IMG/VR virus record: IMGVR_UViG_3300036719_000362
Span: 1 to 23,449 of that record
DNA from: a virus
Strand: one strand, 5' to 3'
Length of the DNA stretch: 23,449 bases
In this document: one piece after another, positions 5,034 through 23,449 of the stretch
Position numbering within the stretch: position 1 is the stretch's first letter
How the letters are laid out: every line of letters begins with the position of its first letter
Translations under genes and position numbers: made by a program
The notes under the pieces: generated by a model
What the model was told of the DNA's origin: nothing
What the model saw: the letters and a program-made list of their open reading frames with translations, nothing else
The model's database searches: none

Positions 5034-8000
5034 TCCACACGCAGACTCAAATCGACAACCTAATCGAGCTGGCAATCATCCAGCGCGTTGAACTACGCAA
5101 ACTCGTTGAGTCGTTGCCGGAGCTTCGCACGCATCTCTCGGTCGAGATCGAGCGTAATCTGAATGAGATCGAGCCAGCGATGCGCGAGGAGTTGCAGGCT
5201 TATTTACTGACCGCATCACAGAGCGAACACGCCATCCTAGGCAACTCGCTCAAGCAAAAGATTGCGGAACTTGCAGTCAGTTTAGAGGACACGACCGCGC
5301 AAAAGTATTCGGTGTTGATGAATGAGCGTGCGGAGAATGATCGACTGCTGATCAAGGCAGAGGCACGGATCGCAGAGGCTGCGATTGCTTTACCTTCAGC
5401 GGTCAAAGAGATCGTCCTCGATGAGCTTTCACGTTTCCCGCGAGCGAATCAAATCGACCAACTGCGGAAAGAATTTGCGGAGCCAGCGAGCTTGAATCCT
5501 CGCGGCAAGTGGCAGATCGGCGAGACGTATAACAAGCTCGATCTCGTGTCGATTAACGGCAACAGCTTCATCGCAAACGAGACGACCACGGAAAAGCCGA
5601 CGATGAACTCGACGGCGTGGACGCTCAACTCGTCGAAGGGTGGTGTCGGTGCTGGCATCACTTCGATCACGGAACTTACTGGAACTCCAAGCAATGGAGA
5701 AACTCTGATCGGTAACGGTCAAGATTACGTCAAGTCGACGCTGACTGCCGGTAACGGTATATCCATCACGAATGGTGCTGGCTCGATTACGGTTACGGCA
5801 ACTGGCGGCGTAAACTTTCAAGGCTCTTGGAACGCATCGACAAACACACCGACACTCACATCGAGCGTCGGCACGACTGGCTTTTTCTATATCGTCAGCG
5901 TTGCGGGTTCAACAAATCTCAACGGTGTAACCGACTGGGAAATTGGGGACTGGGCGATCTTCGGCACTAGCACTTGGACGAAAGTCGATAACACAGACAA
6001 GGTTTCGAGCGTGTTCGGTCGCGTCGGTTCCGTCGTTGGAGTTTCCACGGATTATTCTGCGGTCGGCATCACTAACACGGCGATCGGCGCGAGTAACCCT
6101 TCGACCGTTGCTGCTACTACTCTCTCATCGAGCAGCACAACAATTCTGAACGGCACGACGATTCCAGCAAACAAGACGCTCGTCGTTACGACTGACAAGC
6201 TCTCGGCTTTAGCGGCGACAACGTCAGCGGAACTTGCTGGCGTAATCAGCGACGAAACGGGCAGCGGTGCGCTCGTGTTCGCAACTTCTCCGACCTTAGT
6301 CACTCCAGCCCTCGGCACACCTTCTGCGCTGGTGGGAACGAACATCACTGGCACGGCAGCAGGTCTTACCGCTGGCAATGTTAGCACAAACGCAAATCTG
6401 ACCGGCGATGTAACAAGCGTCGGGAATGCAACCTCAATTGCGTCCGGCGTGATTGTAAATGCTGACGTAAACGCGAGCGCAGCTATTGCTTACAGCAAAC
6501 TAAATCTAGCGACTAGCATTGTTGATGCCGACATCAGCGCTTCGGCTGCAATCGTAGACACAAAACTCGCGACGATCTCGACCGCTTCAAAGGTCAGCAA
6601 CTCGGCAACCACAGCAGCGAGCGCAAACACGGCATCTGCTATTGTAGCGCGTGACGCATCAGGTAATTTTATAGCTGGAACGATTACGGCAAACCTAACT
6701 GGAACCGCATCAAATGTAACCACGAACGCTAATTTGACTGGCGACGTGACCAGCGTGGGCAATGCCACTTCGATTGCAGCAGGTGTCATTGTCAACGCTG
6801 ACATCAACGCAAGCGCGGCCATCGTAGACACTAAGCTGGATACTATTGCAACCGCACTCAAGGTTAGCAACTCGGCGACGACTGCAACTAATGCTAACAC
6901 CGCATCCGCAATCGTGGCTCGTGATGCGTCCGGCAACTTTAGCGCAGGAACAATTTCAGCGGATCTTACAGGCAACGTAACCGGCAACGTCAGCGGATCG
7001 TCCGGCAGCACGACTGGTAACGCGGCAACCGCAACGGCTCTCGCGACAGGTCGCACAATCGCGATCACAGGCGATCTGGCTTATACCTCACCGAGCTTCG
7101 ATGGCAGCGGGAACGTCACGGCGGCGGGAACGCTCGCCACCGTCGCTACGGCGGGGACGACAGGCGGCAGCACGGCAATTCCAGTCGTAACGATTAACGC
7201 CAAGGGTCTGACGACCTCGATCACGACTGCGGCGGTAATTGCTCCGGCTGGCACGCTTACCGGCAACACGCTGGCATCAGGCGTCACGGCTTCATCGCTG
7301 ACCTCACTTGGGACGATTGCGAATTTAACCGCGACTGCTGGAACGATCTCGACTACGCCCAGTGCATCGACTGACATCGCCAACAAACTCTACGTCGACA
7401 CCGTCGCGCAGGGTCTAGATGCGAAGGCTAGTTGCGTTGCAGCGACGACGGCTGACATCACGCTCAGTGGGACGCAGACGATTGACGGTATTGCAATTAT
7501 TGCAGGCAACCGCGTGCTGGTTAAGAATCAGTCGCTCTCGCAGAACAACGGTATTTACCTCTGCGCTGCTGGTTCGTGGACGCGCACGACCGACGCGGAT
7601 ACTTGGGACGAGTTAACCTCGGCTTTTACTTTTATTGAGACAGGCACGGTCAACGCGGACACTGGCTACGTTTGCACGGCGAACGCTGGTGGCACGCTAG
7701 GCACGACGGCATTACCTTGGTCACAGTTTAGCGGCGCGGGATCATACACCGCTTCTACTGGGCTTACGCTCACTGGCACGGTGTTCTCGCTCACGGCTCC
7801 GGTCACGGTTGCATTAGGCGGGACGAACGCAACGAGCGCAGGGATCGCGGCGTTTAATAATATATCTGGCTTCACGGCTGCGGGTGCGACAGGAACGACC
7901 TCGACCAATCTAGTTTTTTCGACCTCGCCGACTTTAGTTACGCCAGCACTTGGCACGCCGTCATCGGCTACGCTAACTAACGCGACAGGTCTACCGCTAA

Positions 8001-10213
8001 CGACAGGCGTAACTGGAACCTTGCCAGTCGCCAACGGCGGCACCGGAGTCACAACCTCCACAGGCACAACCAACGTAGTGCTGTCAGGCTCGCCAACGAT
8101 CACTACACCAGTGATTGCCCAAATCAACGACGCAAGCGGCAATGAGACCTTGAAGTTAGCCTCGATTGCTAGTGCGGTGAATGAGGTCACGATAGAAAAC
8201 GCCCCGAGTGGCAGTGCCGTCCATATCTCAGCCAGTGGCGGAGATGCCTCTGTTGGGCTGCATTTGGCTGGCAAGGGCGCGTCAGGCTACGTCAACGTGC
8301 AAGACTCAACAGATGCCACGAAGCGCATCATGTTCAACGCTGCGGGTGGCACGACGAACACGCGCACAATGTTGAGCAGCACGCAGACGGTGGACAGAAC
8401 GCTCTCGTTGCCAGATGCGACGGATACGCTGGTTGGTAAAGCGACAACGGACACGCTGACGAACAAAACTATCACAGGTGGGATTCTGAACGGCACGCTG
8501 GGCAGCACCACACCTAGCACGATTGCGGGGACGACGATTACGGCAACAAGTGCTGTAACAATGGCTAATGCTACGGCATTACAATTTAAGGAATCAGGTG
8601 GCACTGCGCGGAATACGCTCGGCATGACGGCGGGCAATTTGATTCAAATTGGTGATATACCCAATGCTGGTAACTCGCTTGAGGTGTTGTCTTTTGGTGC
8701 AATTAATACCAAGATTAACACCAGCACGATTACGTCGGTTTCCTCCACCGGCCTCGCAATCACAGGGGTCGTTACAGCGAGCAACGGAACTTATAATCGT
8801 TTTGCTACTACTAATTCTGGAGACACTGTAGCTACTTTGGTAAACAAAGGGAGTGCTAGTGCGTATCTTACAATAGCTAGTGGAACAACAGCAGACTATG
8901 TTCTTGAGATGGCGTCCGAAAGAACTGGGGCGGGTACTGGCAATTTTTACTTTGGCGGTAATCACACAACCAATTTTGTTTTTAGAAGTAATGGATATGC
9001 AAGTCTTGGAAATTGGAATTCCACTGCACTCTCGGTGACAGGGAGTTTGTCGGCCACATCATCAATATCAAATACAACGGCAAGCGGAACTGCTTCGGTT
9101 ATCAACATTGCACAGACTGGAATTATTGGTTGGAACATTACAAACGAAGCAACTACTGGACTGCTAAAAATTGGCGTTACATCGGGCGGGACAATACTCA
9201 CGATGACCAATGGCACTGGCCTCGCGGTCACTGGCACAGTAGGAACAAGCGGTAACGCTACCATTGGCACGGCTGGCTTAGCTCCTGTGGCAACTCCAAC
9301 GCGGCTGACACTTGATGGTAGTTACGCAAACGCAGGCACACCAACAAATCAACAGCAAAAACTAACACTTGTATCTGTTTCTAGCACGGAAGCGTATGGA
9401 TTTGCTGTCTCTAATGATGGAGGACTATGGGCGCAATCTGGTAATTCAACTGGAGCAACTGGCTACATTGGTTTTGCTACAGGAGGGGCCGAGAGAGGCC
9501 GTATTAATTCTACTGGCCTCGCGGTCACTGGGACTACTACCTCTACAGGTGCTATTAGCACGGCGGCAACTGGTGAGGCTTTGACTCTTAATTCTGGTGG
9601 CACAGCGGCTGATACTTATTTAAAAATTAAACGTGGGTCAGGAACGTATTGGACTGTCGGACATGATTCACTGGGGGGGCTGACTTTTGGTCGAGACGGA
9701 ACAGACAAAGCATATTTTGGGCGTAATAGCGTTGATGGCCTTTATGTAATTGGCACGCTTACTTGCACAGGCGCACTCTCCAAAGGTTCTGGCTCGTTCC
9801 GCATCGAGCATCCGCTGCCATCTAAGTCTGCTACTCACCAACTCGTTCACTCCTTCATCGAAGGGCCAAAGTGCGACCTCATCTATCGCGGCAAAATAAA
9901 CTTAGTGGACGGCAAGGCATCCGTAAACATCGACACGGACAGCACAATGACGGAAGGCACATTTGAGGTGCTATGCGCCAACGTGCAATGCTTTACCAGC
10001 AACGAGTCTGGCTGGGGCGCAATTCGCGGCAAAGTGACTGGCAACATCCTTACCATCGAAGCGCAAGATGCGGCATCCACCGACAACGTAAGCTGGATGG
10101 TAATAGGCGAGCGCAAAGACCCGCACATCATGGACACGGACTGGACGGACGAAAACGGTCGCCCAATCGTTGAGCCACTCAAGCCAGCAGAACCCGCCCT
10201 AGAAGCCAAATGA
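5030..10213 (+). CDS. Large modular tail fibre / receptor-binding protein
   Basis: A 1727-residue fibre, by far the largest gene here. In order: a helical, probably coiled-coil N-terminus (1-150); a small carbohydrate-binding-like module (about 158-200, GKWQIGETYNKLDLV ... FIANETTTEKP ... W); a GSWNASTNTPTL module with GDWAIFG and VFGRVGSVVG (about 260-340); long Ala/Ser/Thr-rich repeats (NANLTGDVTSVGNATSIA, ADI-ASAAI--TKL, LVTPALGTPS); a YVDT-QGLDAKAS / GTQTIDGIAIIAGNRVLVKNQ module (about 785-880); a TDTLTNKTI region; AT-rich modules joined by GLAVTG linkers (about 1240-1510); and a C-terminal domain (about 1586-1700, FRIEHPL, LVHSFIEGPKCDLIYRG) common at fibre tips. Such proteins bind the host surface. 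The place between portal and protease is unusual: fibres normally follow the J-like gene. Assignment as a fibre is firm; the receptor is unknown. Confidence 0.9.
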   Translation: MIHTQTQIDNLIELAIIQRVELRKLVESLPELRTHLSVEIERNLNEIEPAMREELQAYLLTASQSEHAILGNSLKQKIAELAVSLEDTTAQKYSVLMNERAENDRLLIKAEARIAEAAIALPSAVKEIVLDELSRFPRANQIDQLRKEFAEPASLNPRGKWQIGETYNKLDLVSINGNSFIANETTTEKPTMNSTAWTLNSSKGGVGAGITSITELTGTPSNGETLIGNGQDYVKSTLTAGNGISITNGAGSITVTATGGVNFQGSWNASTNTPTLTSSVGTTGFFYIVSVAGSTNLNGVTDWEIGDWAIFGTSTWTKVDNTDKVSSVFGRVGSVVGVSTDYSAVGITNTAIGASNPSTVAATTLSSSSTTILNGTTIPANKTLVVTTDKLSALAATTSAELAGVISDETGSGALVFATSPTLVTPALGTPSALVGTNITGTAAGLTAGNVSTNANLTGDVTSVGNATSIASGVIVNADVNASAAIAYSKLNLATSIVDADISASAAIVDTKLATISTASKVSNSATTAASANTASAIVARDASGNFIAGTITANLTGTASNVTTNANLTGDVTSVGNATSIAAGVIVNADINASAAIVDTKLDTIATALKVSNSATTATNANTASAIVARDASGNFSAGTISADLTGNVTGNVSGSSGSTTGNAATATALATGRTIAITGDLAYTSPSFDGSGNVTAAGTLATVATAGTTGGSTAIPVVTINAKGLTTSITTAAVIAPAGTLTGNTLASGVTASSLTSLGTIANLTATAGTISTTPSASTDIANKLYVDTVAQGLDAKASCVAATTADITLSGTQTIDGIAIIAGNRVLVKNQSLSQNNGIYLCAAGSWTRTTDADTWDELTSAFTFIETGTVNADTGYVCTANAGGTLGTTALPWSQFSGAGSYTASTGLTLTGTVFSLTAPVTVALGGTNATSAGIAAFNNISGFTAAGATGTTSTNLVFSTSPTLVTPALGTPSSATLTNATGLPLTTGVTGTLPVANGGTGVTTSTGTTNVVLSGSPTITTPVIAQINDASGNETLKLASIASAVNEVTIENAPSGSAVHISASGGDASVGLHLAGKGASGYVNVQDSTDATKRIMFNAAGGTTNTRTMLSSTQTVDRTLSLPDATDTLVGKATTDTLTNKTITGGILNGTLGSTTPSTIAGTTITATSAVTMANATALQFKESGGTARNTLGMTAGNLIQIGDIPNAGNSLEVLSFGAINTKINTSTITSVSSTGLAITGVVTASNGTYNRFATTNSGDTVATLVNKGSASAYLTIASGTTADYVLEMASERTGAGTGNFYFGGNHTTNFVFRSNGYASLGNWNSTALSVTGSLSATSSISNTTASGTASVINIAQTGIIGWNITNEATTGLLKIGVTSGGTILTMTNGTGLAVTGTVGTSGNATIGTAGLAPVATPTRLTLDGSYANAGTPTNQQQKLTLVSVSSTEAYGFAVSNDGGLWAQSGNSTGATGYIGFATGGAERGRINSTGLAVTGTTTSTGAISTAATGEALTLNSGGTAADTYLKIKRGSGTYWTVGHDSLGGLTFGRDGTDKAYFGRNSVDGLYVIGTLTCTGALSKGSGSFRIEHPLPSKSATHQLVHSFIEGPKCDLIYRGKINLVDGKASVNIDTDSTMTEGTFEVLCANVQCFTSNESGWGAIRGKVTGNILTIEAQDAASTDNVSWMVIGERKDPHIMDTDWTDENGRPIVEPLKPAEPALEAK
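6389..6972 (+). repeat. Two tandem fibre repeats, same protein, different codons
   Basis: Copy A starts at 6389 and copy B at 6725. Both begin NANLTGDVTSVGNATSIA and end with KVSNSATTA... NTASAIVARDASGNF followed by AGTI. Copy A is longer because it holds a second internal ADI-ASAAI--TKL unit. In the first 18 codons all residues are identical, but 12 codons differ, all silently. This is an in-frame protein repeat, not a mobile or CRISPR repeat. Confidence 0.85.
8747..9531 (+). repeat. Three in-frame GLAVTG linker repeats separating AT-rich fibre modules
   Basis: The 20-base sequence ACTGGCCTCGCGGTCACTGG occurs identically at 9215-9234 and 9512-9531, with a close variant at 8747-8766 (three changes). 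All are in the fibre frame and encode TGLA(V/I)TG. The spacings are 468 and 297 bases (156 and 99 codons). The sequence between them is markedly AT-richer than the rest of the gene. Confidence 0.8.
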
Positions 10214-11608: not shown

Positions 11609-11630
11609 CCGCGCCGCAGCGGATTAAACC
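11602..11630. terminator. Hairpin between convergent genes, probably a bidirectional terminator
   Basis: GGTTTAACCGC pairs with GCGGATTAAACC (one bulged A), with a six-base loop GCCGCA. The stem contains the stop codons of both converging frames (TAA at 11606-11608 on + and TAA of the metallophosphoesterase at 11626-11624 on -). There is no clear U-tract, so it may act as a weak or Rho-assisted terminator, or as a stabilising 3' end. Confidence 0.65.
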
Positions 11631-12646
11631 TTGATGTTGCTGACCACGAACTCGCCGGAAGCACTCAGCGTGACTTCGGCGTAACCGTGCGACCAGCGAT
11701 TGTATCGCGAATACATCGGATGCAAATCGCACAAGCAACCGAGTGACCACGTTGCAATCGATTTGCCGCGAACGTCATTCTCGACGTGTTCGCTAACTTG
11801 ATGGTGATGATTCACGAGCGAGGACGCTTTCGTTCGCATGAATAATCCACGCGCTGCGTTGACTGGGCCGATCATCGGCGTCGGGTATTCGTGACCGTGC
11901 AGCACCGTAAGGTTGCCGAGGTAGATCGCACGCTTCTCATTAACGTAATCGAAACCACGTTCCTTGAGTTGCAGCAGTTCCGTAAGCGTGATAATCTTCA
12001 GATCGTAAATCTCAGGCGCGGCGCTCATCACATAATGATCGAGACGTTCCTCGTGGTTGCCGTCCTTCCAAATCTTTTTTGCTTTGGGATAACGCTCATC
12101 GAGCGCGTCCAAGAAATCATTCGTCGTCTCGATCTCTTTTTTAACAGATCGACAGCGCGGGTCTTTCATGAAGCGCGACAGCTTATAGAAGTCGATTGTG
12201 TCACCGTTCAAAATAATCAAGTCCGGCTTAAACTTATCCAGTCGAGCGAACACGTTACGCAGCGCCTTGACTGAATGATACGGCAAGTGGATGTCGCCCA
12301 GCACGGCGATCTTCGCGTCACGATTCAATTCGTTCTTAACGATGTGCGGAATGAAATCGGATTCATCCGAGGGCGGGATGAAATGCGATGGCTCCGACTT
12401 CTCAACGAATTTATTAGACCTTACTGCTTTGGCTAAATTGTTCGCACCTTGTTTGCCGCGCAGATACCTGATGCTAGTTCGCACGTTCTCTAATTTTGAT
12501 TTAAGCCAGACATCGGGATTATCAGCGATCAATTTTCGCGCAATCGTGCGACTCGGCAGATCATTCCATTTTAACAGCGCGTCTCTTATTATCTTGGATT
12601 CGATTTCTTGCATAAGAAAGGCAGAGCGTTTTTTGCGCTCTGCCAT
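11624..12646 (-). CDS. Calcineurin-like metallophosphoesterase
   Basis: A 340-residue protein and the only confident gene on the - strand. The metal-binding set of the family is complete: D118-x-H120 (GDIHLPYH), D149 (NGDTIDF), N197-H198 (DGNHEERL), H250/H252 (VLHGHEY) and a histidine cluster at 280-282 (NHHHQ). The N-terminal 75 residues are helical and basic (LPSRTIARKLIADNP, then SIRYLRGKQG), a DNA-binding-like extension I recall from other phage metallophosphoesterases. It would hydrolyse a phosphoester; substrate (nucleotide, nucleic acid end or protein phosphate) is not readable. It is convergent to the holin and divergent from the protease gene, with its own promoter-like sequence, so it is probably expressed at a different time from the late genes. 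Confidence 0.9.
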   Translation of the reverse strand: MAERKKRSAFLMQEIESKIIRDALLKWNDLPSRTIARKLIADNPDVWLKSKLENVRTSIRYLRGKQGANNLAKAVRSNKFVEKSEPSHFIPPSDESDFIPHIVKNELNRDAKIAVLGDIHLPYHSVKALRNVFARLDKFKPDLIILNGDTIDFYKLSRFMKDPRCRSVKKEIETTNDFLDALDERYPKAKKIWKDGNHEERLDHYVMSAAPEIYDLKIITLTELLQLKERGFDYVNEKRAIYLGNLTVLHGHEYPTPMIGPVNAARGLFMRTKASSLVNHHHQVSEHVENDVRGKSIATWSLGCLCDLHPMYSRYNRWSHGYAEVTLSASGEFVVSNIKV

Positions 12647-15138: not shown

Positions 15139-16659
15139 ATGCGCCTATCTCTCTGCGTTATTTGCGGCAACGAATCGGAACACATCTTGCAAATGCTCAA
15201 TTCGTTTGAGCCGATCTTTGATGAGCTATCGCTGGTGCGAGCTATCGGTGGTCAAGAGCCGGACGACACCGTGGATAAGGCGCGTGCGTGGTGCGGCGAG
15301 AACGGCAAGGATTTCCTGTTCTCGGAATACATCAACACTCTGACCGCACAAAAATGGCCGCACGTCGATTCGTTCTCGGACGCTCGCAATGCGGCGTTCG
15401 CTCAAGGCACAGGCGACTGGCTTTTGTGGGCTGACTGCGACGATCTGATCGAGGGGACTAGTATGTTCCGCGAATCGCTTAAAAGCGCCAAGGACGACGT
15501 TCTAATGGCACGCTGTCCGTATGATGTCAGAGGCTCAAACAAGAAGCTGCTTCGCGAGCGCGTTATCCGGCGATCAACCTTTGAAGCCGGACGCCGCTGG
15601 CATCACGACGTTCACGAGAACCTGCTCCTGCTCGCTAACGATAAGCACGAGGACTGGCAGCAGCCGGTTTGGATACACTCGCCCAACGTGATCAAGCGAG
15701 CGAACCGAAAGCGGAACTTGAAGATTCTTGGCAAGTCGGTCGCGGAATCGGCAACGCAATACTTTTACATTCACCAAGAACATTACTGCGACGGCAATCG
15801 ACCGGCGGCAGAGCAGTTCGGCAAGATCGCGATCTCGTTCCCGAATCTAGAAAGCTCGTTCCGTTACGAGGTGTTGCTAAATTTAGCGCGTATTTCCGGC
15901 ATCAACCGCGAGGCGATGCAGTATGCTTTGCAAGCGCACGGCGTTTTCCCTTGGTGTCGCGAGGCGATTGCTACTATGATACTATTGCATTTTGAGAGGC
16001 AGGATGCCAAGCGAGCGTCTTACTGGGCTGAGACTATGCTGAAGCTCGATGTGCCGAGCGTCGCGGATCGACCGTGGACGCACGAGCGCAAATGGTATGA
16101 CTGGGCTGGCTGGGATTTGGCAGCGCGTGCGGCACGGCTTTCCGGCTTCACGACGCTCGCTGAGATACGCCAAATGCATTGCCATAAAACAGAGGAGCCA
16201 AGGATCACGCTTCTGCACGCGACCAAGGATAACACCTCAAACGCGGTGGCTTGCCGTGACGCTTGGCTAAATGCCGCGACCGATCCGGCGCACGTTGAGC
16301 ATATCTTTGCAATCAACTCCGACGACGAAACCAGCACGGTAATGGTCAAGCAATTCCAGCACGTTAACGTGAAAGGAACGCTCGACGACGCGCTCAATTC
16401 AGCCAGCAAGAAAGCGCGTGGGAATCTACTGATCGAGGTGCGGGATAACTACGCGCCAGCGTTGCAATGGGATTCAAAACTTTTTGATTTGATCTCAGGT
16501 CGTGACCTCAATTCTACGCCACTAAGGATCAAGATCAAGGAGGTCGATCAGCGCATAATTTCTCGCGCACAGTATCGAGCGCAAGCCGAGGTGTTCACCG
16601 CATCGGAGCCGGACTGCGAGGTCTTGGAGGCGGTGGAAAGGATCACGCTCATTCGGTGA
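15139..16659 (+). CDS. Glycosyltransferase with two GT-A-type domains
   Basis: A 506-residue protein. Domain 1 (1-200) is family-2-like: LSLCVICGNES at the first strand, DARNAAFAQGTGDWLLWADCDD with the DxD-type metal motif D99/D101/D102, and RRWHHDVHENL. A helical middle (about 215-345, Trp- and Ala-rich) resembles tetratricopeptide-type repeats. Domain 2 (about 354-506) starts RITLLHATKDNTSNAVACRDAW and has HVEHIFAINSDDETS and LLIEVRDNYAPALQWD, the pattern of another family-2-like glycosyltransferase found in phages. It would move a sugar from a nucleotide sugar to a protein or glycan; acceptor unknown. The position directly between capsid and tail genes suggests virion glycosylation, but this is inference. 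It overlaps the next gene (GTGA). Confidence 0.82.
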   Translation: MRLSLCVICGNESEHILQMLNSFEPIFDELSLVRAIGGQEPDDTVDKARAWCGENGKDFLFSEYINTLTAQKWPHVDSFSDARNAAFAQGTGDWLLWADCDDLIEGTSMFRESLKSAKDDVLMARCPYDVRGSNKKLLRERVIRRSTFEAGRRWHHDVHENLLLLANDKHEDWQQPVWIHSPNVIKRANRKRNLKILGKSVAESATQYFYIHQEHYCDGNRPAAEQFGKIAISFPNLESSFRYEVLLNLARISGINREAMQYALQAHGVFPWCREAIATMILLHFERQDAKRASYWAETMLKLDVPSVADRPWTHERKWYDWAGWDLAARAARLSGFTTLAEIRQMHCHKTEEPRITLLHATKDNTSNAVACRDAWLNAATDPAHVEHIFAINSDDETSTVMVKQFQHVNVKGTLDDALNSASKKARGNLLIEVRDNYAPALQWDSKLFDLISGRDLNSTPLRIKIKEVDQRIISRAQYRAQAEVFTASEPDCEVLEAVERITLIR

Positions 16660-17339
16660 AAGCGATTGTAATTTGCACGACGCACGGCAAGTGCTTGCCG
16701 GTCATGCTGGCCTCAATCTCGGAATACGTTCCGCGTGATGTGGTGGTTTATATCGCTGGCTCAGACTTGAAGTTGCCGAATCACCAAACGATTAACCTGC
16801 CGAATGACGCACGCAATTTTGGCGATGCTTACAACGCGGCGGCAGCGATTGCGTTTGCACGCTTCGATGAAATCGTGATTGCAAATGACGACATCGTTTT
16901 GACTCCAACTACATGGAGGACACTCGCTTGCGACGTTTCTTTCATCAAAGAAAAGTTTGGCGATCACGGCATTGTTGCGTGTCGATCTGATTACGCAAGA
17001 GGCACGCAGAACATACGCTGCGGAATCGGTAAGATTAACTTTTTGAGATACGAATCGGAGGCGCAAATAATTGTCACGGATGTGATCGCGCCGATCTTCG
17101 CGCAGGTTACCCGCAGCGCTTGGGTGGATTTCCCACCGATCAACTGGTTCTCGGACGACGTGCAATGCTTGGACATGAAACGGAATCACTATATTTCCCG
17201 CGCTTACGTTCATCACGTCGGGTCGCAGACTTGCGGCGATGATGTCAAAAAATGCTTAGACGATGCCGAGCCGTGGATTAAAGCGAATCGCCCAGAATTG
17301 CACGCTAAGTGGTTTCTTACAAACGGAGCAATGGTATGA
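16656..17339 (+). CDS. Small family-2-like glycosyltransferase
   Basis: A 227-residue single-domain protein. AIVICTTHGKCLPVMLASI forms the first strand and helix of a GT-A fold, NFGDAYNAAAAIAF the nucleotide-binding helix, and EIVIANDDIVLTP (N77-D78-D79) the metal-binding motif. WFSDDVQCLDMKR and YVHHVGSQT near the C-terminus are usual for this group. It starts with GTG overlapping the stop of the larger glycosyltransferase, and its own stop overlaps the FII-like gene (ATGA), so both enzymes are translated together with virion genes. Confidence 0.82.
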   Translation: MKAIVICTTHGKCLPVMLASISEYVPRDVVVYIAGSDLKLPNHQTINLPNDARNFGDAYNAAAAIAFARFDEIVIANDDIVLTPTTWRTLACDVSFIKEKFGDHGIVACRSDYARGTQNIRCGIGKINFLRYESEAQIIVTDVIAPIFAQVTRSAWVDFPPINWFSDDVQCLDMKRNHYISRAYVHHVGSQTCGDDVKKCLDDAEPWIKANRPELHAKWFLTNGAMV

Positions 17340-17656
17340 GCAGCGTCCGAGACTTCGATCCCACCCAGCTTGCCGCAGACTATCTCGGCATCCTCGATCA
17401 AGCTGGTATCACGTTCACTTACCAAGGCAACACGGTGACCGGCATCTGGTCGTCGGCTCGTAATGCGTTCGATGACTTCGAGGATCAGCGTCGTGCGGAT
17501 TCTAAGTTCACGATTTTCTTAACGACTGACCAAATTGCAACGACTCCGGCGGTGTCGCAGACCTTGCTGCGTTCCGGCGTGACTTACTTTGTCGAGCGCG
17601 TGACGTTAGACGCCGAGGGGACTGGTTGTGAAATTGACGTGTGCAAAAATATATGA
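17336..17656 (+). CDS. Head-tail joining protein, lambda FII-like
   Basis: A 106-residue beta-rich protein. ATG 17336 (MSSVRDFD) is chosen because it overlaps the preceding stop and has GGAG seven bases upstream; an earlier in-frame start at 17309 would run into the glycosyltransferase. The core reads ITFTYQGNTVTGIWSSA, then FTIFLTTDQIAT, LLRSGVTYFVERV and CEIDVCKN, the strand order of FII-type head completion proteins that bind the filled head and receive the tail. It is the first gene of the tail-joining block, in the FII place. Confidence 0.72.
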   Translation: MSSVRDFDPTQLAADYLGILDQAGITFTYQGNTVTGIWSSARNAFDDFEDQRRADSKFTIFLTTDQIATTPAVSQTLLRSGVTYFVERVTLDAEGTGCEIDVCKNI

Positions 17657-18531
17657 TCACGGTTGATTTCAACACCGCAAAATTGAATGGGCTTCTTGCT
17701 CAATTAGCTGCTACGGCAAAAGTTGATCTTGGCAAAGTTATCAGAGCCGAGGGCGGTAATCTTGCTAGAAATATAATGCTGATTATTCCTCCGACGACTG
17801 GAAAGGGGGATATAAAACCAGAGAAACAACCGCGAGGCGCGGGAATGACTAAAGCTGCACAAGAGCAAGGATTCAACGCGATCAAGAGTGATTTGTTCGG
17901 TGGATCAAAAATGGCGAAGAGTAGTTCCATTGGTCTTTTTCAAACGATTGGTGAATCAGGATTGAGAGAACCGCGCAATCGCACGCATGAAACATTGCGC
18001 GTAAGATTAGGAAATAATGATAGCAGCAGAAGCGTGAAGATTATGTCAAAATTCTGGCGCCCAGAAGCGAGTAAAGGAGAAATGGCTAAGTTTAGAAAAC
18101 TATATCGGAATAAATATGGCAGAACTGGGCAAGTATCGCAAAACACGATTGGTCGATGGAGGGTGCAAGATCAAATGTGGGTTAGCAAACAAAGCGCAGA
18201 TGCTTATTTCGGCATCTTAAAAAACAGAGTCGGTTGGAACAAGTCCGGATTTGCTGCTGCTGCTATTGCGTGTGGAATCAGAGTGCCTTCGTGGATTAGG
18301 AAGCACGCTAGATCATCTGGTCGCGTGTCTTTCAATTTTGGGCCAAACCCATATGTGATTGCAACAGCTACGAAAAATTCGATTCCTAACATTCAGCGTT
18401 ATGTTGACGGAGCTTTACTCGCTAGAGAAAAAATTACCTTACAAAAAATAAACCGCATCTATGGAAACAAGGCGGTCAATTTAGGATTCGCGAAAGTTAG
18501 AGGCGATGGAACAATCGACTACAATAAATAA
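17653..18531 (+). CDS. Minor tail / tail completion protein, gpZ- or HK97 gp10-like
   Basis: A 292-residue protein that starts by ATGA overlap with the FII-like gene (a GTG at 17641 would add four residues). NLARNIMLIIPPTTG with AAQEQGFNAIKSDLFGG is the recognisable element of this family, which helps prepare the tail tip for head joining. The middle is basic (KFRKLYRNKYGRTG) and the end NFGPNPYVIATATKNS is also usual. The gene is AT-rich (23 GC of 60 at 18001-18060), unlike its neighbours, suggesting it was exchanged separately. The family call rests on motif and order. Confidence 0.68.
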   Translation: MITVDFNTAKLNGLLAQLAATAKVDLGKVIRAEGGNLARNIMLIIPPTTGKGDIKPEKQPRGAGMTKAAQEQGFNAIKSDLFGGSKMAKSSSIGLFQTIGESGLREPRNRTHETLRVRLGNNDSSRSVKIMSKFWRPEASKGEMAKFRKLYRNKYGRTGQVSQNTIGRWRVQDQMWVSKQSADAYFGILKNRVGWNKSGFAAAAIACGIRVPSWIRKHARSSGRVSFNFGPNPYVIATATKNSIPNIQRYVDGALLAREKITLQKINRIYGNKAVNLGFAKVRGDGTIDYNK

Positions 18532-18962
18532 TGAGCATCCGCACAAACATCCGCACCGCTACTGCTAACGCTTTGACTGGCGCGAGCGTAGTTGTCACCG
18601 CTAACATTCTTAAAGGTCGTAACAACACGATTGCCAGCGTCAGTTTTCCGTCGGCTGCGGTCTACGCCGTGCAAGAGCAAATCGAGGTGCGATCACTAGC
18701 GCCATCGAATCGCGTGCAATATCGGCAGCTTTCCTTGATGGTCGATTACTTCATCGCAGAAAGCGGAACCTACCTGATCGACGACCTATTCGATACCGGC
18801 AGCGCAGCGGTCGAGGCTGCTGTTTTAGCCGATCCCACCCTCGGTGGCGTCTGCTCCGACCTACATTTGACAACGGTCGATTATGTGATCGAGCCAGATG
18901 AAGATCGGCGCTGGGGCGTCGCTCGTCACACTTTTAACTGCATCTACTTAACCCAAGACTAA
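18531..18962 (+). CDS. Tail terminator protein, gpU-like
   Basis: A 143-residue protein starting at a one-base overlap (AATAATGAG) with the Z-like gene. It has an alpha/beta layout (MSIRTNIRTATANALTGA helix, then VYAVQEQIEVRSLAPSNRVQYRQLSLMVDYFI strands, VEAAVLADPTLGG, and DRRWGVARHTFNCIYL) typical of tail terminators, which cap the tube once it reaches tape-measure length. The next gene, the tube protein, starts two bases after its stop, the same U-V order as lambda. Confidence 0.78.
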   Translation: MSIRTNIRTATANALTGASVVVTANILKGRNNTIASVSFPSAAVYAVQEQIEVRSLAPSNRVQYRQLSLMVDYFIAESGTYLIDDLFDTGSAAVEAAVLADPTLGGVCSDLHLTTVDYVIEPDEDRRWGVARHTFNCIYLTQD

Positions 18963-18963
18963 T

Positions 18964-19350
18964 ATGGCAAACCATCTAGGACGCGAAGGGATCGTAAAGA
19001 TTTCTAGCACCACCATCGGCGAGTTGAAAAATTACTCGCTTTCACATTCCTCTGACACCGTTGAGGATTCTATTATCGGCGACATCTACCGCACGCGGGT
19101 CGCGACCATGAAAATGTGGTCAGTCTCCGGCGATATGTTCTGGGATGAGGCCGATGCCGGTCAGCTTCTAATGACCATTGGCAGCAGCGTGACGCTTAAC
19201 CTCTACCCAGAGGGGGCAACGACCGGTGACGTGTATTACAGCGGCAGCGCAATCGTCACCAAGTTCGATGTCACCGCAAACTTCGATGGTCTGGTCGAGG
19301 CTTCGACCGCATTTGAGGGCAATGGCGTTCTGTCAACTGTCACGGCTTAA
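18964..19350 (+). CDS. Major tail tube protein, gpV-like
   Basis: A 128-residue protein with the tube family pattern: GREGIVKISSTTIGELKNYSL, SSDTVEDSIIGD, VSGDMFWDEADAGQ, LYPEGATTGDVYYSGSAIVTK, and a closing STAFEGNGVLS. Stacked rings of it form the tube through which DNA passes. It is half the length of lambda V (246) and lacks an Ig-like C-terminal domain. The leader is AAGACTAAT-ATG with no Shine-Dalgarno sequence, although the product must be abundant. Confidence 0.88.
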   Translation: MANHLGREGIVKISSTTIGELKNYSLSHSSDTVEDSIIGDIYRTRVATMKMWSVSGDMFWDEADAGQLLMTIGSSVTLNLYPEGATTGDVYYSGSAIVTKFDVTANFDGLVEASTAFEGNGVLSTVTA

Positions 19351-19365
19351 TCTGAGGAACAAACA

Positions 19366-19689
19366 ATGGACGCAATCGACCTAGTTCGGGAACACTTCAC
19401 GTCGCTCGGCACAAAGCGCATCGACGTTCCAGAATGGAAAATGCAGATTTATTCTACCCCAGTTACGCTGGGCGAAAAGAATCGTCTTTATCGCAAGTCG
19501 AAAGACAACGATATGGAATTGTTGGTAGACATCTTGATTGCCAAGGCGTGCAACGCTGAAGGCATTAAGTTATTTACCATCGAGCATCGGATCACGTTCC
19601 TCAACAAAGCCGACAGCAACGTGGTTGCTCGCGTCGCAAATGCTATTCTCTCCGAAGATTCTCCTAAAGTTGATGATCTAAAAAACTAA
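19366..19689 (+). CDS. Tail assembly chaperone, gpG-like (0-frame product)
   Basis: A 107-residue mainly alpha-helical protein in the lambda G place, between tube and tape measure genes. Visible elements: LVREHFTSLGTKRIDVPEW, KNRLYRKSKDNDMELLVDILIAKACNAEG, and FLNKADSNVVARVANAILSED, a common tail-chaperone pattern. It binds the tape measure protein and recruits tube subunits but is not kept in the virion. GAGGA seven bases before the ATG gives one of the best ribosome binding sites here. It ends with the slippery codons AAA-AAC-TAA, so a fraction of ribosomes continue into the frame described in the next entry. Confidence 0.87.
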   Translation: MDAIDLVREHFTSLGTKRIDVPEWKMQIYSTPVTLGEKNRLYRKSKDNDMELLVDILIAKACNAEGIKLFTIEHRITFLNKADSNVVARVANAILSEDSPKVDDLKN

Positions 19690-19847
19690 TCGGCGGCGAG
19701 CAAGGAGCCGACCTTCTCGCCGTTTACGCAATCGCGGAACGACTCGGCAAGTTCGCTTATGAAGTATTGGAAATGCCAGCCGAGGAGTTATCCGGCTGGC
19801 TTGCTTATATAAATCACCTAAATCGACTCAAAAAAAATGGCCGCTGA
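19366..19847 (+). CDS. Tail assembly chaperone gpGT-like fusion made by -1 frameshift
   Basis: After a -1 slip at A AAA AAC (19680-19686) the frame continues from C19686 for 53 codons to TGA 19845-19847, giving 160 residues. The added part reads LIGGEQGADLLAVYAIAER, then LGKFAYEVLEMPAEELSGW and LAYINHLNRLKKNGR: a well-formed domain with the LLAVYAIAERLG / MPAEELSGWLAY pattern of T-type extensions. It has no start codon of its own and fills a gap of 147 bases that would otherwise be noncoding. The T part normally binds tube protein while G binds the tape measure. It overlaps the tape measure start by 11 bases. Confidence 0.85.
19680..19722 (+). promoter_or_regulatory. -1 programmed frameshift signal (slippery heptamer plus stem-loop)
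   Basis: A AAA AAC at 19680-19686 is in the right phase for tandem slippage and is followed at once by the 0-frame stop TAA. Seven bases later CGGCGAG (19694-19700) pairs perfectly with CTCGCCG (19716-19722) around a 15-base loop; two G-U pairs can extend it. Confidence 0.87.
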
Positions 19848-21198
19848 AGCAACATTTATTCTTAAAGCGGTTGATGCGACGAAGCAGGCTTTTGCGAGCG
19901 TGCAGAACTCGCTCACAAAGATGAACGCCACCGCAAAAACGGTGGTTGCAAGTTTCAAGGGATTTATCGCGCTTACAGCGATAATTCAAATTGGAAAAAG
20001 CATAAATCGAACACTTGAAGAAGCTGAAGCAAACGCGCAAAAATTAGGAAAAACTCAGGAAGAAATTGACAAGTTGACTCGTGCGACGGGGTTTATTGAC
20101 AACGCTTTCAAGGCATTAAAAGAAACGCTGCTTTTGGGAGTAGATCGTGTTCTTGAATTAAAAGATGCGATTACCGGTGTTACAAAAGTTGATTCAGCGG
20201 GAATTGCAGATCAACTGCGCTTGGATCGCGATAAACCAAAAATCGTCGACGTTACTGAAACAATTTTAAGACTTAGAGAACAGTTGAATTCTATTGGGGA
20301 CACTCCTTCTCAAGCTTTTGCGCGTCTAGGTGCAGAAATTGAACGAGTAAACAGCGCCTCAAAAGATATTACGTTATCCGCTGAGTTAGATGCGTTAAAT
20401 CGTGAAGCAAAAACGTTAGAAATTACCGCTGAACAAACCAAAATTGCTCAGAGTGCTTTTGTTGATTACGAAAAATCGGTTTTGGCTGTAAACGAAGCCT
20501 TCGAAAATTTTCAGATGGAGCAAATGTCCGCTGAGCAACAACAGGCTAAAATAATTCAACAGGTGATTGATCTAACTGCTGAAATCGAAGCACTACAATC
20601 AGTGTTACCGGAAGACGGCTCGTTTAACATTTTGACTGCAACCGCAGAAGAAGTGGCACAATTTGAAAAGTTGACTGAACTGCAAGAGCGACTGGTTAAA
20701 ACGATAGGAAAGCGAAAAGTCGCTGAAACTGATTTCCAAATAATTGCAAAGAATACAGGCGACATTTTAGCAAGTGGTTTCGAGGACGCAATTTTTTCTG
20801 GTCAAAAATTAAGTGAAGTAATTAAGGCGCTTGGTTTAGATTTGATGCGGATGATTTTTCAACAGATGGTGACAGCGCCACTTGCAAGCGGAATTTTTAA
20901 GGCATTAACAGGTAGAGCGATGGGTGGCCCAGTATCTTCCGGCTCGCCTTATGTCGTTGGCGAGAAAGGCCCAGAGCTATTCGTGCCAAACAGCAGCGGT
21001 TCAATCATTCCAAATAGCAAGATGGGCAGCGGTTCTAGTGGCGCTGGTGGAACAAACGTAAACGTGACCTACAACATCGCCTCCGGCGTGTCTCGCTCCG
21101 ATCTTGCGCCGATCCTTGAACAGCAACGCAAGTTACTCAAAGCGGAGATTCCCGACATGGTTCGTCGCGGTGGTGGCTACCGTGCAGCGTTTGCTTAA
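19837..21198 (+). CDS. Tail tape measure protein (short)
   Basis: A 453-residue protein that sets tail length and is injected or extruded with DNA. Residues 1-300 are almost all helix (FILKAVDATKQAFASVQNSL, LEEAEANAQKLGKTQEEID, LSAELDALNREAKTLEI), with one hydrophobic stretch near 45-55. The C-terminus carries the widespread tape measure motif GRAMGGPVSSGSPYVVGEKG-PELFVP at about 362-387. At about 1.5 angstrom per residue the tail would be near 68 nm, half of lambda (H is 853 residues). The first 1.1 kb is AT-rich (24 GC of 60 at 20041-20100), while the last 280 bases are GC-rich (34 of 60 at 21121-21180), suggesting a recombination joint near 20920. Confidence 0.88.
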   Translation: MAAEATFILKAVDATKQAFASVQNSLTKMNATAKTVVASFKGFIALTAIIQIGKSINRTLEEAEANAQKLGKTQEEIDKLTRATGFIDNAFKALKETLLLGVDRVLELKDAITGVTKVDSAGIADQLRLDRDKPKIVDVTETILRLREQLNSIGDTPSQAFARLGAEIERVNSASKDITLSAELDALNREAKTLEITAEQTKIAQSAFVDYEKSVLAVNEAFENFQMEQMSAEQQQAKIIQQVIDLTAEIEALQSVLPEDGSFNILTATAEEVAQFEKLTELQERLVKTIGKRKVAETDFQIIAKNTGDILASGFEDAIFSGQKLSEVIKALGLDLMRMIFQQMVTAPLASGIFKALTGRAMGGPVSSGSPYVVGEKGPELFVPNSSGSIIPNSKMGSGSSGAGGTNVNVTYNIASGVSRSDLAPILEQQRKLLKAEIPDMVRRGGGYRAAFA

Positions 21199-21206
21199 TA
21201 AACATC

Positions 21207-21788
21207 ATGGCAATTTCCTACCCACTCACACCTCCGGCGGCGCTCGTTGCGTCTAAGCTAATGATTACTGGCGTGAGTTCTACGCGCCGGAATATATCGC
21301 CTTACACGCTGCAATCTCAGCAATACAACTGGACTGGTCAAGGCTGGCTTGGCTCGGTTGAGTGTCCACCGATGGTGCGCGCCGACGCGGAAGCGGTGAT
21401 CGGGTTCCTGCTTGCAGCGCAACGCGGCACGTTCTACTTTCAAGATTACGCAAATCCAAATCCTCGCGGTGCCGTAACAGGCACGTTGCTGGTTTCAAGT
21501 GCGACGGCTAACGATACGACGCTCGGCTTCAGCGGCGCGACTGGCAATTTCGCGGTAGGCGACTGGATTCAAATCTCGACCTCGCTTTACAAGGTAATCC
21601 AAGTGAACTCGTCATCGAGCGTAGATTTGTTTCCGTTATTGCGTGCAAGTTACGCGGTCAGCACACCTATCACTAAGGTCAACGCAAAGGGCGTGTTTCG
21701 ATTGCAGGAACCATCGACGCAATGGAGCATCGAGTTAGCTAACATTTACGGCATGAGCTTTAGCGTAGTCGAGGACATTGCGTCATGA
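21207..21788 (+). CDS. Tail tip protein, gpM-like (distal tail type)
   Basis: A 193-residue protein directly after the tape measure gene. SYPLTPPA at the start, RRNISPYTLQSQQYNWTGQGWLGSVECP and DAEAVIGFLLAAQRGTFYFQDYANP are the pattern of distal-tail/gpM-type proteins that begin the tip structure around the tape measure. The second half is beta-rich (TLLVSSATANDTTLGFSG, VGDWIQIS, YKVIQVNSSSSVDLFP). It overlaps the L-like gene (ATGA). The family is inferred from motif and order; an exact lambda counterpart is not certain. Confidence 0.72.
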   Translation: MAISYPLTPPAALVASKLMITGVSSTRRNISPYTLQSQQYNWTGQGWLGSVECPPMVRADAEAVIGFLLAAQRGTFYFQDYANPNPRGAVTGTLLVSSATANDTTLGFSGATGNFAVGDWIQISTSLYKVIQVNSSSSVDLFPLLRASYAVSTPITKVNAKGVFRLQEPSTQWSIELANIYGMSFSVVEDIAS

Positions 21789-22429
21789 GCATCACAACCG
21801 CTGGCAGATCACTGAGCAACGACATGGTGACGGAGGTTTCCGCGTCGCAACTAACACCGATCTTGTTAGCGTCGTTGGAGTTTTCTCCGGTGATTTATCT
21901 TTGGAGTGGTTATGGAAATCTGGTCTACAATTCGATCACTTATTTGGGGACTGGTGAATTTGGAACGATCTCACCTATCGAGGAAACGACCGATCTTTCG
22001 TCTCGCGGAATTTCTTTGGAACTTTCAGGTGTTTCAACAACGCTAATTGCTGAAGCTCTTACAGAAAATTACCAAGGCAAAAACTGCACGGTGCTATTCG
22101 GTGCGTTGAATTCAAGCGCGGCGCTGGTATCGACACCGATTACGATCTTCTCTGGTCGAATGGACGTGATGAATATCTCGGATGACGGAACATCGCAGAC
22201 GCTAACGATGACGGCTGAGAATCGGTTAATGGATTTTAGGCGTCCTCGCGAGGTTCGTTACACACATCAAGAGCAGTTGCAGTTACGAGCCAGCGCAACC
22301 ATCGCCGATCTTGGTTTAATTTACGTCAATGCTATCCAAGAAAAAGAAATTTACTGGGGCAATGAAAAGCTCGCTGCTCCAGTAATGAGTAATGGCGGCG
22401 GCGACTATGGCCCAACAGAATACGCATGA
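21785..22429 (+). CDS. Tail tip protein, gpL-like / DUF2163-like hub protein
   Basis: A 214-residue protein. YLWSGYGNLVYNSITYLGTGEFG, ISPIEETTDLSSRGISLELSG, ALTENYQGKNCTVLFGAL and FSGRMDVMNISDDG form the recognisable core of tail hub proteins of this group, with MTAENRLMDFRRPREVRYT and EIYWG following. It joins the tip to the K-like and J-like proteins. GAGGA lies nine bases before its ATG. The stop overlaps the next start (ATGATG). Confidence 0.77.
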   Translation: MSITTAGRSLSNDMVTEVSASQLTPILLASLEFSPVIYLWSGYGNLVYNSITYLGTGEFGTISPIEETTDLSSRGISLELSGVSTTLIAEALTENYQGKNCTVLFGALNSSAALVSTPITIFSGRMDVMNISDDGTSQTLTMTAENRLMDFRRPREVRYTHQEQLQLRASATIADLGLIYVNAIQEKEIYWGNEKLAAPVMSNGGGDYGPTEYA

Positions 22430-22848
22430 TGACTCGAAAAGAAAATTGGACTGACGAGCTAGTCGCTTTCATCGAGGAGCGTCGGCACGAGCCGTTCGCG
22501 TGGGCGAAGAACGATTGTTGCTTGTTTGCGTGCGACTGGATTAAGCGTGCGACTGGAACTGATCCGGCGTTTCAACTGCGCGATCAATATCATTCCGCAA
22601 TCTCAGCGCATCGACTTATCAAGAAGCACGGCGGCATTATCGGAATCGTGCGTAACTACGGAGAGCCATGCGGGATCGAGCGCATCGAGTCATCAATGGC
22701 GCGGCGCGGTGATATTATCGTGAGCGATTGCGGAGATGGCGACTGCATCGGGGTTGTTGTAGGCGCAGAAGCGGCTTTTGTTGGAGTTAGCGGATTGCTT
22801 TTTAATACGCTAAACGGAGAAAAGAAATCAACCTGCTGGAGACTTTAA
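22426..22848 (+). CDS. Tail tip protein, gpK-like / DUF6950-like, NlpC/P60-related
   Basis: A 140-residue protein with the pattern W-x-NDCCLFACDWI (C31 or C32 as possible nucleophile), RATGTDPA, and GGIIGIVRNYG, ending GVSGLLFNTLNGEK--TCWRL. This matches a family of small tail proteins distantly related to NlpC/P60 peptidases, which in gpK may cut peptidoglycan during DNA entry. No clear catalytic histidine follows the GDIIVSDCGDGDCIGVVVG stretch, so the hydrolase activity may be lost or use other residues. Position between L- and J-like genes fits lambda K; there is no gene I equivalent. Confidence 0.75.
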   Translation: MMTRKENWTDELVAFIEERRHEPFAWAKNDCCLFACDWIKRATGTDPAFQLRDQYHSAISAHRLIKKHGGIIGIVRNYGEPCGIERIESSMARRGDIIVSDCGDGDCIGVVVGAEAAFVGVSGLLFNTLNGEKKSTCWRL

Positions 22849-22852
22849 TTTT

Positions 22853-23449
22853 ATGCCACAGGCATTACCCCTTTTACTCACTAAGATTGTTGTCGCAATA
22901 AAAGCAATTACGGTTGCTTCCATTCTGAAGTTTGTCGCGGTTACTGCTGCATCGATGGCGGTGTCAAAGCTGCTCGCGCCTAAAGCTCCGAGCTTTTCAG
23001 ATTCATCAATCTCGACTCGCTCGCAAATGGTGCGCTCGCCGATCTCAGCGAGGCAAGTGATTTACGGTCAATGCAAAGCGTCAGGCGTGATCGTTTACAT
23101 CTCGACGACTGGCACAAAAAACGAGTTCCTGCATCTCGTGATTGCGATTGCCGGTCATGAGTGCGAAGAACTCGGCGACGTTTATCTCAACGACGAGAAA
23201 ATTATTACAGGCTCCGGCAACACGGTCGATGGCGGCAGCAGATATCTTAACAAGATTTCAATCGTTAAGCATCTTGGAACGACTCCGCAGACGGCTGACG
23301 CGGCGTTAATTGCTGCGACGACAGGCTTAACCGCTGACACAGGGCAATGGACTTCCGCGCATCGCTTAGACGGCATTACATACATTTACGCGAAACTGAC
23401 ATGGGACGCTGAAATCTATGTCGGCGGCATCCCGAATATTTCGTGCGTC
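22853..23449 (+). CDS. Tail tip / host specificity protein, gpJ-like, N-terminal part (cut by window end)
   Basis: The frame starts MPQALPLLLTKIVVAIKAI and remains open for 199 codons to the window edge. After a hydrophobic helical N-terminus (1-45, AVTAASMAVSKLLAPKAPSF) comes the usual J start: STRSQMVRSPISARQVIYG, CKASGVIVYISTTG, FLHLVIAIAGHECEELGDVYLND. In J-type proteins this N-terminal part forms the tip ring and the missing C-terminal part binds the host receptor. GGAG lies 11 bases upstream of ATG. The end is unknown. Confidence 0.85.
   Translation, partial: MPQALPLLLTKIVVAIKAITVASILKFVAVTAASMAVSKLLAPKAPSFSDSSISTRSQMVRSPISARQVIYGQCKASGVIVYISTTGTKNEFLHLVIAIAGHECEELGDVYLNDEKIITGSGNTVDGGSRYLNKISIVKHLGTTPQTADAALIAATTGLTADTGQWTSAHRLDGITYIYAKLTWDAEIYVGGIPNISCV

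Follow-up and report, generated by a model that had tools for sequence, protein, structure and literature searches.

Comparative evidence for a probable lambda G/GT-type -1 frameshift in the tail assembly chaperone gene of an uncultivated siphophage-like virus and its relatives

In phage lambda, the major tail protein gene, G, T and the tape measure gene follow one another in that order; ribosomes shift by -1 on a heptamer close to where G ends, and the T frame enters the start of the tape measure gene. When we ran on lambda the same reading that we applied to the locus described here, we recovered the precedent named by the first-pass annotation, a GGGAAAG heptamer, and found it five codons before the G stop. 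Other tail assembly chaperone genes are reported to use AAAAAAC, including those of Caulobacter phage phiCbK and its relatives (GGGAAAC in Colossus) and of Acinetobacter phages Loki and IME_AB3, with the Loki motif next to the stop (PMC3556154, PMC5313236). The same heptamer is in print for the HCTV-2 chaperone and is given as possible for Dragolir (PMC6003738), and among the 3679 SEA-PHAGES genomes of the PRFect study there are 2397 joined tail assembly chaperones (PMC10885494). In E. coli, A_AAA_AAC is described in a review as far less shift-prone than A_AAA_AAG, a point against a shift at our locus. Because AAAAAAC chaperone sites and joined chaperones are already in print, neither the heptamer type nor the arrangement at our locus is novel.

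The window, by which we mean the whole 23,449-nt stretch of DNA that was analysed, is a virus record with a lambda-like head module and a siphophage-type tail module. Pfam searches identified head genes for a terminase (GpA_ATPase) and a lambda-family portal, and the tail genes comprise a tail terminator, major tail protein, chaperone, tape measure and distal tail protein. Profile searches identify the gene before G and T as that of the major tail protein and the gene after them as that of the tape measure (Table 1). The first-pass annotation had described an A AAA AAC heptamer in phase immediately before the stop of G, a 7-base spacer, a perfect CGGCGAG/CTCGCCG stem, and a -1 frame of 53 codons whose stop overlaps the tape measure start; all of these elements are present. 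The zero-frame codons at the end of G read CTA AAA AAC TAA, which places the heptamer in the X XXY YYZ phase. The T frame is open from 19686 to 19844 and its end overlaps the tape measure gene by 11 nt, so that the predicted GT fusion has the claimed length (107 + 53 = 160 aa). In comparison to lambda, the window's heptamer touches the stop codon rather than lying five codons upstream, and its T is shorter than lambda T, which is annotated as 144 aa; the likeness to lambda is one of layout. The A AAA AAC type had been presented as unlike lambda, and it does differ from GGGAAAG, although it has the precedents in phiCbK, Loki and HCTV-2 given above; the likeness of phiCbK, Loki and IME_AB3 to the window lies in the reported heptamer.

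Table 1. Features of the G/T region in the window (positions count from the first base of the window).
Feature	Position	Strand	Basis or remark
Major tail protein gene, directly 5' of G	18964-19350	+	Pfam Phage_tail_2, 31.9 bits (cut-off 23.8); phrog_1407, E 1.3e-16
G, tail assembly chaperone, 107 aa	19366-19689	+	Stop TAA 19687-19689; phrog_344, E 4.1e-7; AlphaFold2 model
Slippery heptamer A AAA AAC	19680-19686	+	-1 phase, abuts G stop; read from sequence
Spacer TAATCGG, 7 nt, includes G stop codon	19687-19693	+	Sequence; gap-free alignment of 33 distinct variants
T, -1 frame, 53 codons plus TGA 19845-19847	19686-19847	+	C-terminal part of the predicted 160-aa GT fusion
Stem 5' arm CGGCGAG	19694-19700	+	Sequence, fold, alignment
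Inner 4-bp helix, 5' arm AAGG	19702-19705	+	Pairs with CCTT 19712-19715 in fold; start of Shine-Dalgarno-like AAGGAG
Stem 3' arm CTCGCCG	19716-19722	+	Sequence, fold, alignment
Tape measure protein gene, 453 aa, ATG 19837	19837-21198	+	phrog_1538, E 6.3e-13, residues 353-419

Taken alone, the sequence of the window is only suggestive of a frameshift. We found nine in-phase X XXY YYZ heptamers (Y = A or T) across the 18 listed plus-strand genes of the window, among which only the AAAAAAC at the end of G sits at a gene stop; it also opens the longest -1 extension (53 codons; next 36). Heptamers of the X XXY YYZ pattern occur at a frequency of 0.0016 per nt of the plus strand, and a perfect 7-bp stem at a spacer of 5-9 follows 135 of 23,389 window positions. 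Under a first-order model of the region, 53 open codons have a probability of about 0.09, and the local fold has a z of -1.48, with 18 of 200 dinucleotide shuffles equally stable. Both of these values are weak alone, and the case rests on relatives.

Searching IMG/VR with G alone yielded 207 relatives, of which we kept the best 80; as the query was G only, these loci were not chosen for T. All 80 of these best-matching loci carry AAAAAAC at the stop, followed by a T frame that is open. A second search with T returned 67 loci, 62 of them matching nearly all of T, and the window together with the 80 and the 62 gives 143 places (13 contigs, by contig name, are counted twice). One locus (L306) is cut inside the heptamer and was excluded from the heptamer count. 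A heptamer was present in all 142 readable places, AAAAAAC in 140 and GGGAAAC in two (L326 and L328); among 82 distinct G ends, 80 read NTA AAA AAC and two CTG GGA AAC. The swap to CTG GGA replaces lysine with glycine and retains the slippery pattern. In these genes, AAA makes up 35% of lysine codons; the combined share of CTA and TTA among leucine codons is about 15%, which includes the site's own CTA or TTA. The stop codon after the heptamer varies between TAA, TGA and TAG at a fixed place. The remaining five loci from the T search (L345-L349) match part of T only and were left out of the alignment and the counts; each has an in-phase heptamer before a stop in the frame of the upstream gene, CCCTTTG in four and AAAAAAC in one. 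A further IMG/VR scan with the alignment returned mainly contigs already found, and no counts were taken from it.

Homologues with stop codons in the T frame had been named in advance as evidence against the frameshift, and none was found among 73 distinct 46-codon sequences, of which all 73 contain stops in the zero frame and 37 in the +1 frame. Variable sites fall at the first, second and third T-frame codon positions in 26, 19 and 43 cases. Fourteen comparisons with the window gave pN/pS values of 0.07-0.44 for the T frame. For 13 of them the values were 0.91-4.98 in the zero frame and 1.53-3.15 in the +1 frame, L009 being the exception with 0.42 and an undefined value, respectively. By these substitution patterns, the T frame is under purifying selection.

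A predicted hairpin follows the heptamer after a short spacer, as at stimulated bacterial -1 frameshift sites. Its perfect 7-bp stem has 15 nt between the arms; in the minimum-free-energy fold the inner AAGG/CCTT helix is paired over a bulged C, leaving the loop AGCCGA, and folding adds two G-U pairs at the base of the stem. Across 33 distinct 45-nt variants, aligned with no gaps, 93.1% of the cells of the 7-bp stem are standard pairs, compared to 29-79% when the arms are slid by 1-3 columns; in a separate pairing run, 80.6% of cells remain paired with the partner slid by +3. Pair 16-42 is G-C in 30 of these variants, C-G in two and unpaired in one, and inner pair 21-37 is G-C in 16, C-G in five and unpaired in 12. 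The predicted structure was more stable than T-preserving synonymous recodings drawn from the window's codon usage in 16 of 18 variants (P 0.05 or less), the folds of L342 (P 0.20) and L344 (P 0.62) being no better than this control. Two-sided pair changes did not exceed shuffles (2 versus a mean of 1.4, 201/500; 3 versus 2.5, 242/500), and neither did further pair types (421/500). The number of two-sided-change cells and the covariation score exceeded nearly all shuffles (2/500 and 1/500), measures that are inflated by relatedness. From these comparisons we take the hairpin to be real in most of the window's group and unproven in some lineages.

The first-pass annotation had also pointed to a Shine-Dalgarno-like AAGGAG in the loop. 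The motif is present at 19702-19707, downstream of the heptamer; since the fold adds the AAGG/CCTT helix, it is partly paired rather than free in the loop. It occurs in three of the 33 distinct variants, and we rejected a special role for it on this lack of conservation; the motif is probably incidental. By eye, no Shine-Dalgarno-like stimulator, an optional feature of such sites, stands out in the 16 codons upstream of the heptamer in 20 loci. As a separate observation, loci grouped with phage DSL-LC06 (L248, L251, L263 and others) often carry an AAGGAGG-like stretch directly after the heptamer (CTAAAGGAGGAC), which encodes Lys-Glu-Asp in the T frame, and many relatives have AAAGAGGAC instead.

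Beyond gene order, the assignment as a tail chaperone is borne out by profile matches of G and T individually, and one tail assembly chaperone profile (phrog_16513) spans the fusion (T alone, E 3e-4; fusion, E 4.8e-10, residues 5-153). In Pfam neither G nor T nor the fusion reached a cut-off, and a PDB sequence search with a G profile gave chance-level matches only (best E 0.25). An AlphaFold2 model of G has a mean pLDDT of 85.4. Its best Foldseek match in the PDB is the HK97 tail assembly chaperone 2OB9 (E 1.5e-3, probability 1.00), with no PDB match at E 0.001 or below; superposition on 2OB9 gives Z 8.2 and rmsd 3.7 over 97 residues (next Z 6.1). Among viral models, the chaperone of Rhodobacter phage RcRhea ranks fifth against the G model (E 2e-4). 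Together, these predictions lend moderate support to a tail assembly chaperone fold for G.

The closest named relatives of G, at about 31-42% identity, are those of pelagiphages HTVC111P, HTVC112P, HTVC026P and HTVC202P and of DSL-LC06. All five share with the window an open -1 T frame after an in-phase heptamer that abuts the stop, and differ in that their deposits contain no annotated T. The heptamer is AAAAAAG in HTVC111P and HTVC112P, AAAAAAC in HTVC026P, HTVC202P, DSL-LC06 and phi3LM21, and GGGAAAC in RcRhea, R4C and DSS3_PM1. RcRhea has homologous G and T and its deposit joins both frames; it differs in its heptamer and in a G that is only about 22% identical. An in-phase heptamer thus sits at the stop or one codon before it in nine of 11 named phages, with Mcat18 (heptamer at 1800, one codon before the stop codon at 1810) as the tenth, although similarity to the query is weak for R4C (E 0.2), DSS3_PM1 (E 3) and Mcat18 (E 0.8). 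In S-2L, an in-phase CCCAAAG lies 15 codons before the stop. The deposits of HTVC112P and HTVC111P carry antisense coding sequences over the conserved T frame (L082:3406-3552 and L083:1906-2058, respectively; gp41 and gp45, hypothetical), which are probably spurious.

Both more distant groups in IMG/VR retain T. Among the matches listed for the pelagiphage type (593 relatives found), AAAAAAG abuts the stop and T is retained in all 80 loci kept; among 40 loci of the DSL-LC06 type, AAAAAAC abuts the stop in 37 and lies one codon earlier in three, with T retained in all 40. The T profile of each of these groups matches that of the window's group, the probabilities being 96.7 and 96.8%. In a structure test of eight DSL-LC06-type loci, seven folded better than recoded controls, with differing shapes, and one (L277) did not (P 0.53). 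HTVC112P and HTVC111P also beat the recoding control (P 0.01 and 0.00). The HTVC112P stem uses the codons AGC, GAC, AGG and TCG; across eight genes of that stretch, TCG accounts for 1 of 94 serine, GAC for 11 of 87 aspartate and AGG for 4 of 70 arginine codons. A DNA-level search of phage records with positions 17600-23449 found only a 71-nt stretch in the tape measure genes of four Roseobacter phages. Scanning genome contigs with G gave 84 pattern matches and no relative, and we therefore infer no host.

From the phase of the heptamer, its conservation, purifying selection on T, and profile and fold similarity, we conclude with a probability of about 95% that this locus is a lambda G/GT-type tail assembly chaperone gene in which a -1 frameshift yields a GT fusion. 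The relatives support this reading, and the programmed frameshift is very probably real and functional, with expression predicted from the sequences. Most ribosomes would stop at the TAA at 19687 and release the 107-aa G. A minority, slowed by the hairpin at 19694-19722, would slip back one base on A AAA AAC, where the lysine and asparagine tRNAs could re-pair with AAA AAA; reading would continue CTA ATC GGC and produce the 160-aa GT fusion. By analogy to lambda, binding of the tape measure protein may fall to G, and recruitment of the major tail protein to the T portion of GT. Membership of this class would also entail a GT output that is low relative to G, and tail-protein binding by both products, neither becoming part of the virion.

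It is very improbable that T is instead a separate protein and no fusion is made, with ribosomes binding at AAGGAG and initiating internally or re-initiating close to the G stop. Two deposits, phi3LM21 and DSS3_PM1, are annotated with their own downstream coding sequence in the T frame, and AAGGAG would offer a binding site in the window. However, the -1 frame after the heptamer (LIGGEQGADLLAVYAIAERLGKFAYEVLEM) offers no ATG, GTG or TTG start, its first ATG is M30, far from AAGGAG, and AAGGAG is confined to a few variants whereas the heptamer is found in every readable place. A separate T would also leave unexplained why AAA AAC is conserved at the codon level and why the exceptions change in concert to CTG GGA AAC.

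That GGGAAAC, which contains no long homopolymer, occupies the same place in L326, L328, RcRhea and R4C bears on two further explanations that draw on the run of six A at the site. Transcriptional slippage on this run could create a mixed mRNA pool and a fusion made by normal translation of the edited message; given GGGAAAC at this place, and a stem 3' of the heptamer that is kept in most variants, we consider this still less probable than a separate T. An assembly or sequencing error at the homopolymer could have split one continuous gene, but the same frame break recurs at the same place in many separate contigs and deposited phage genomes, including those with GGGAAAC, and the stop varies in identity at its fixed place. 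Such an error is therefore highly improbable, the least credible of these accounts, and we retain the -1 frameshift as the preferred reading.

Several other genes in the window were also noted. A 340-aa calcineurin-like phosphoesterase (11627-12646; Pfam Metallophos, E 1.3e-8) is by eye the sole likely minus-strand gene in the structural module and lies between the fibre region and the head genes. A 1727-aa repeat-rich open reading frame (5030-10213), tail-fibre-like by eye, lies directly 3' of the portal gene and not downstream of the tail tip genes. The putative capsid gene is separated from the tail genes by two genes (15139-17339), the first matching glycosyl transferase family 2 at 22.4 bits, just under the cut-off of 23.3, and the second without a Pfam match. 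Between terminase and portal, a 199-aa open reading frame (1990-2589) is HNH-nuclease-like by eye, with no Pfam match at E 0.001. A tape measure protein as short as the one encoded here would suggest a short tail.

Our literature search found no paper on tail assembly chaperone frameshifting in pelagiphages, and a term search of the text of the paper describing DSL-LC06 (PMC10611076) did not return 'frameshift'. These searches support only the statement that, within the literature searched, the T frames of these particular phages are not described.

In the window's group, A AAA AAC, a weak heptamer in E. coli, goes with a long GC-rich hairpin. In the pelagiphage group the strong A AAA AAG goes with a hairpin of 7 bp, some of whose codons are rarely used by those phages, and two lineages adopted G GGA AAC and kept the hairpin. 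One tentative interpretation, which we regard as rather doubtful, is that heptamer and hairpin evolve together and so keep the G:GT ratio steady. The finding leaves the understanding of the frameshift mechanism unchanged and is a clear further example of a known one, in which routine gene calling can miss the T part. It adds the T half of the tail chaperone that was lacking for a sizeable number of uncultivated phages, as well as for HTVC111P, HTVC112P, HTVC026P, HTVC202P and DSL-LC06, from whose deposits it is absent. If co-evolution were true, the family would offer a natural set of sites in which to measure the tuning of frameshift strength.
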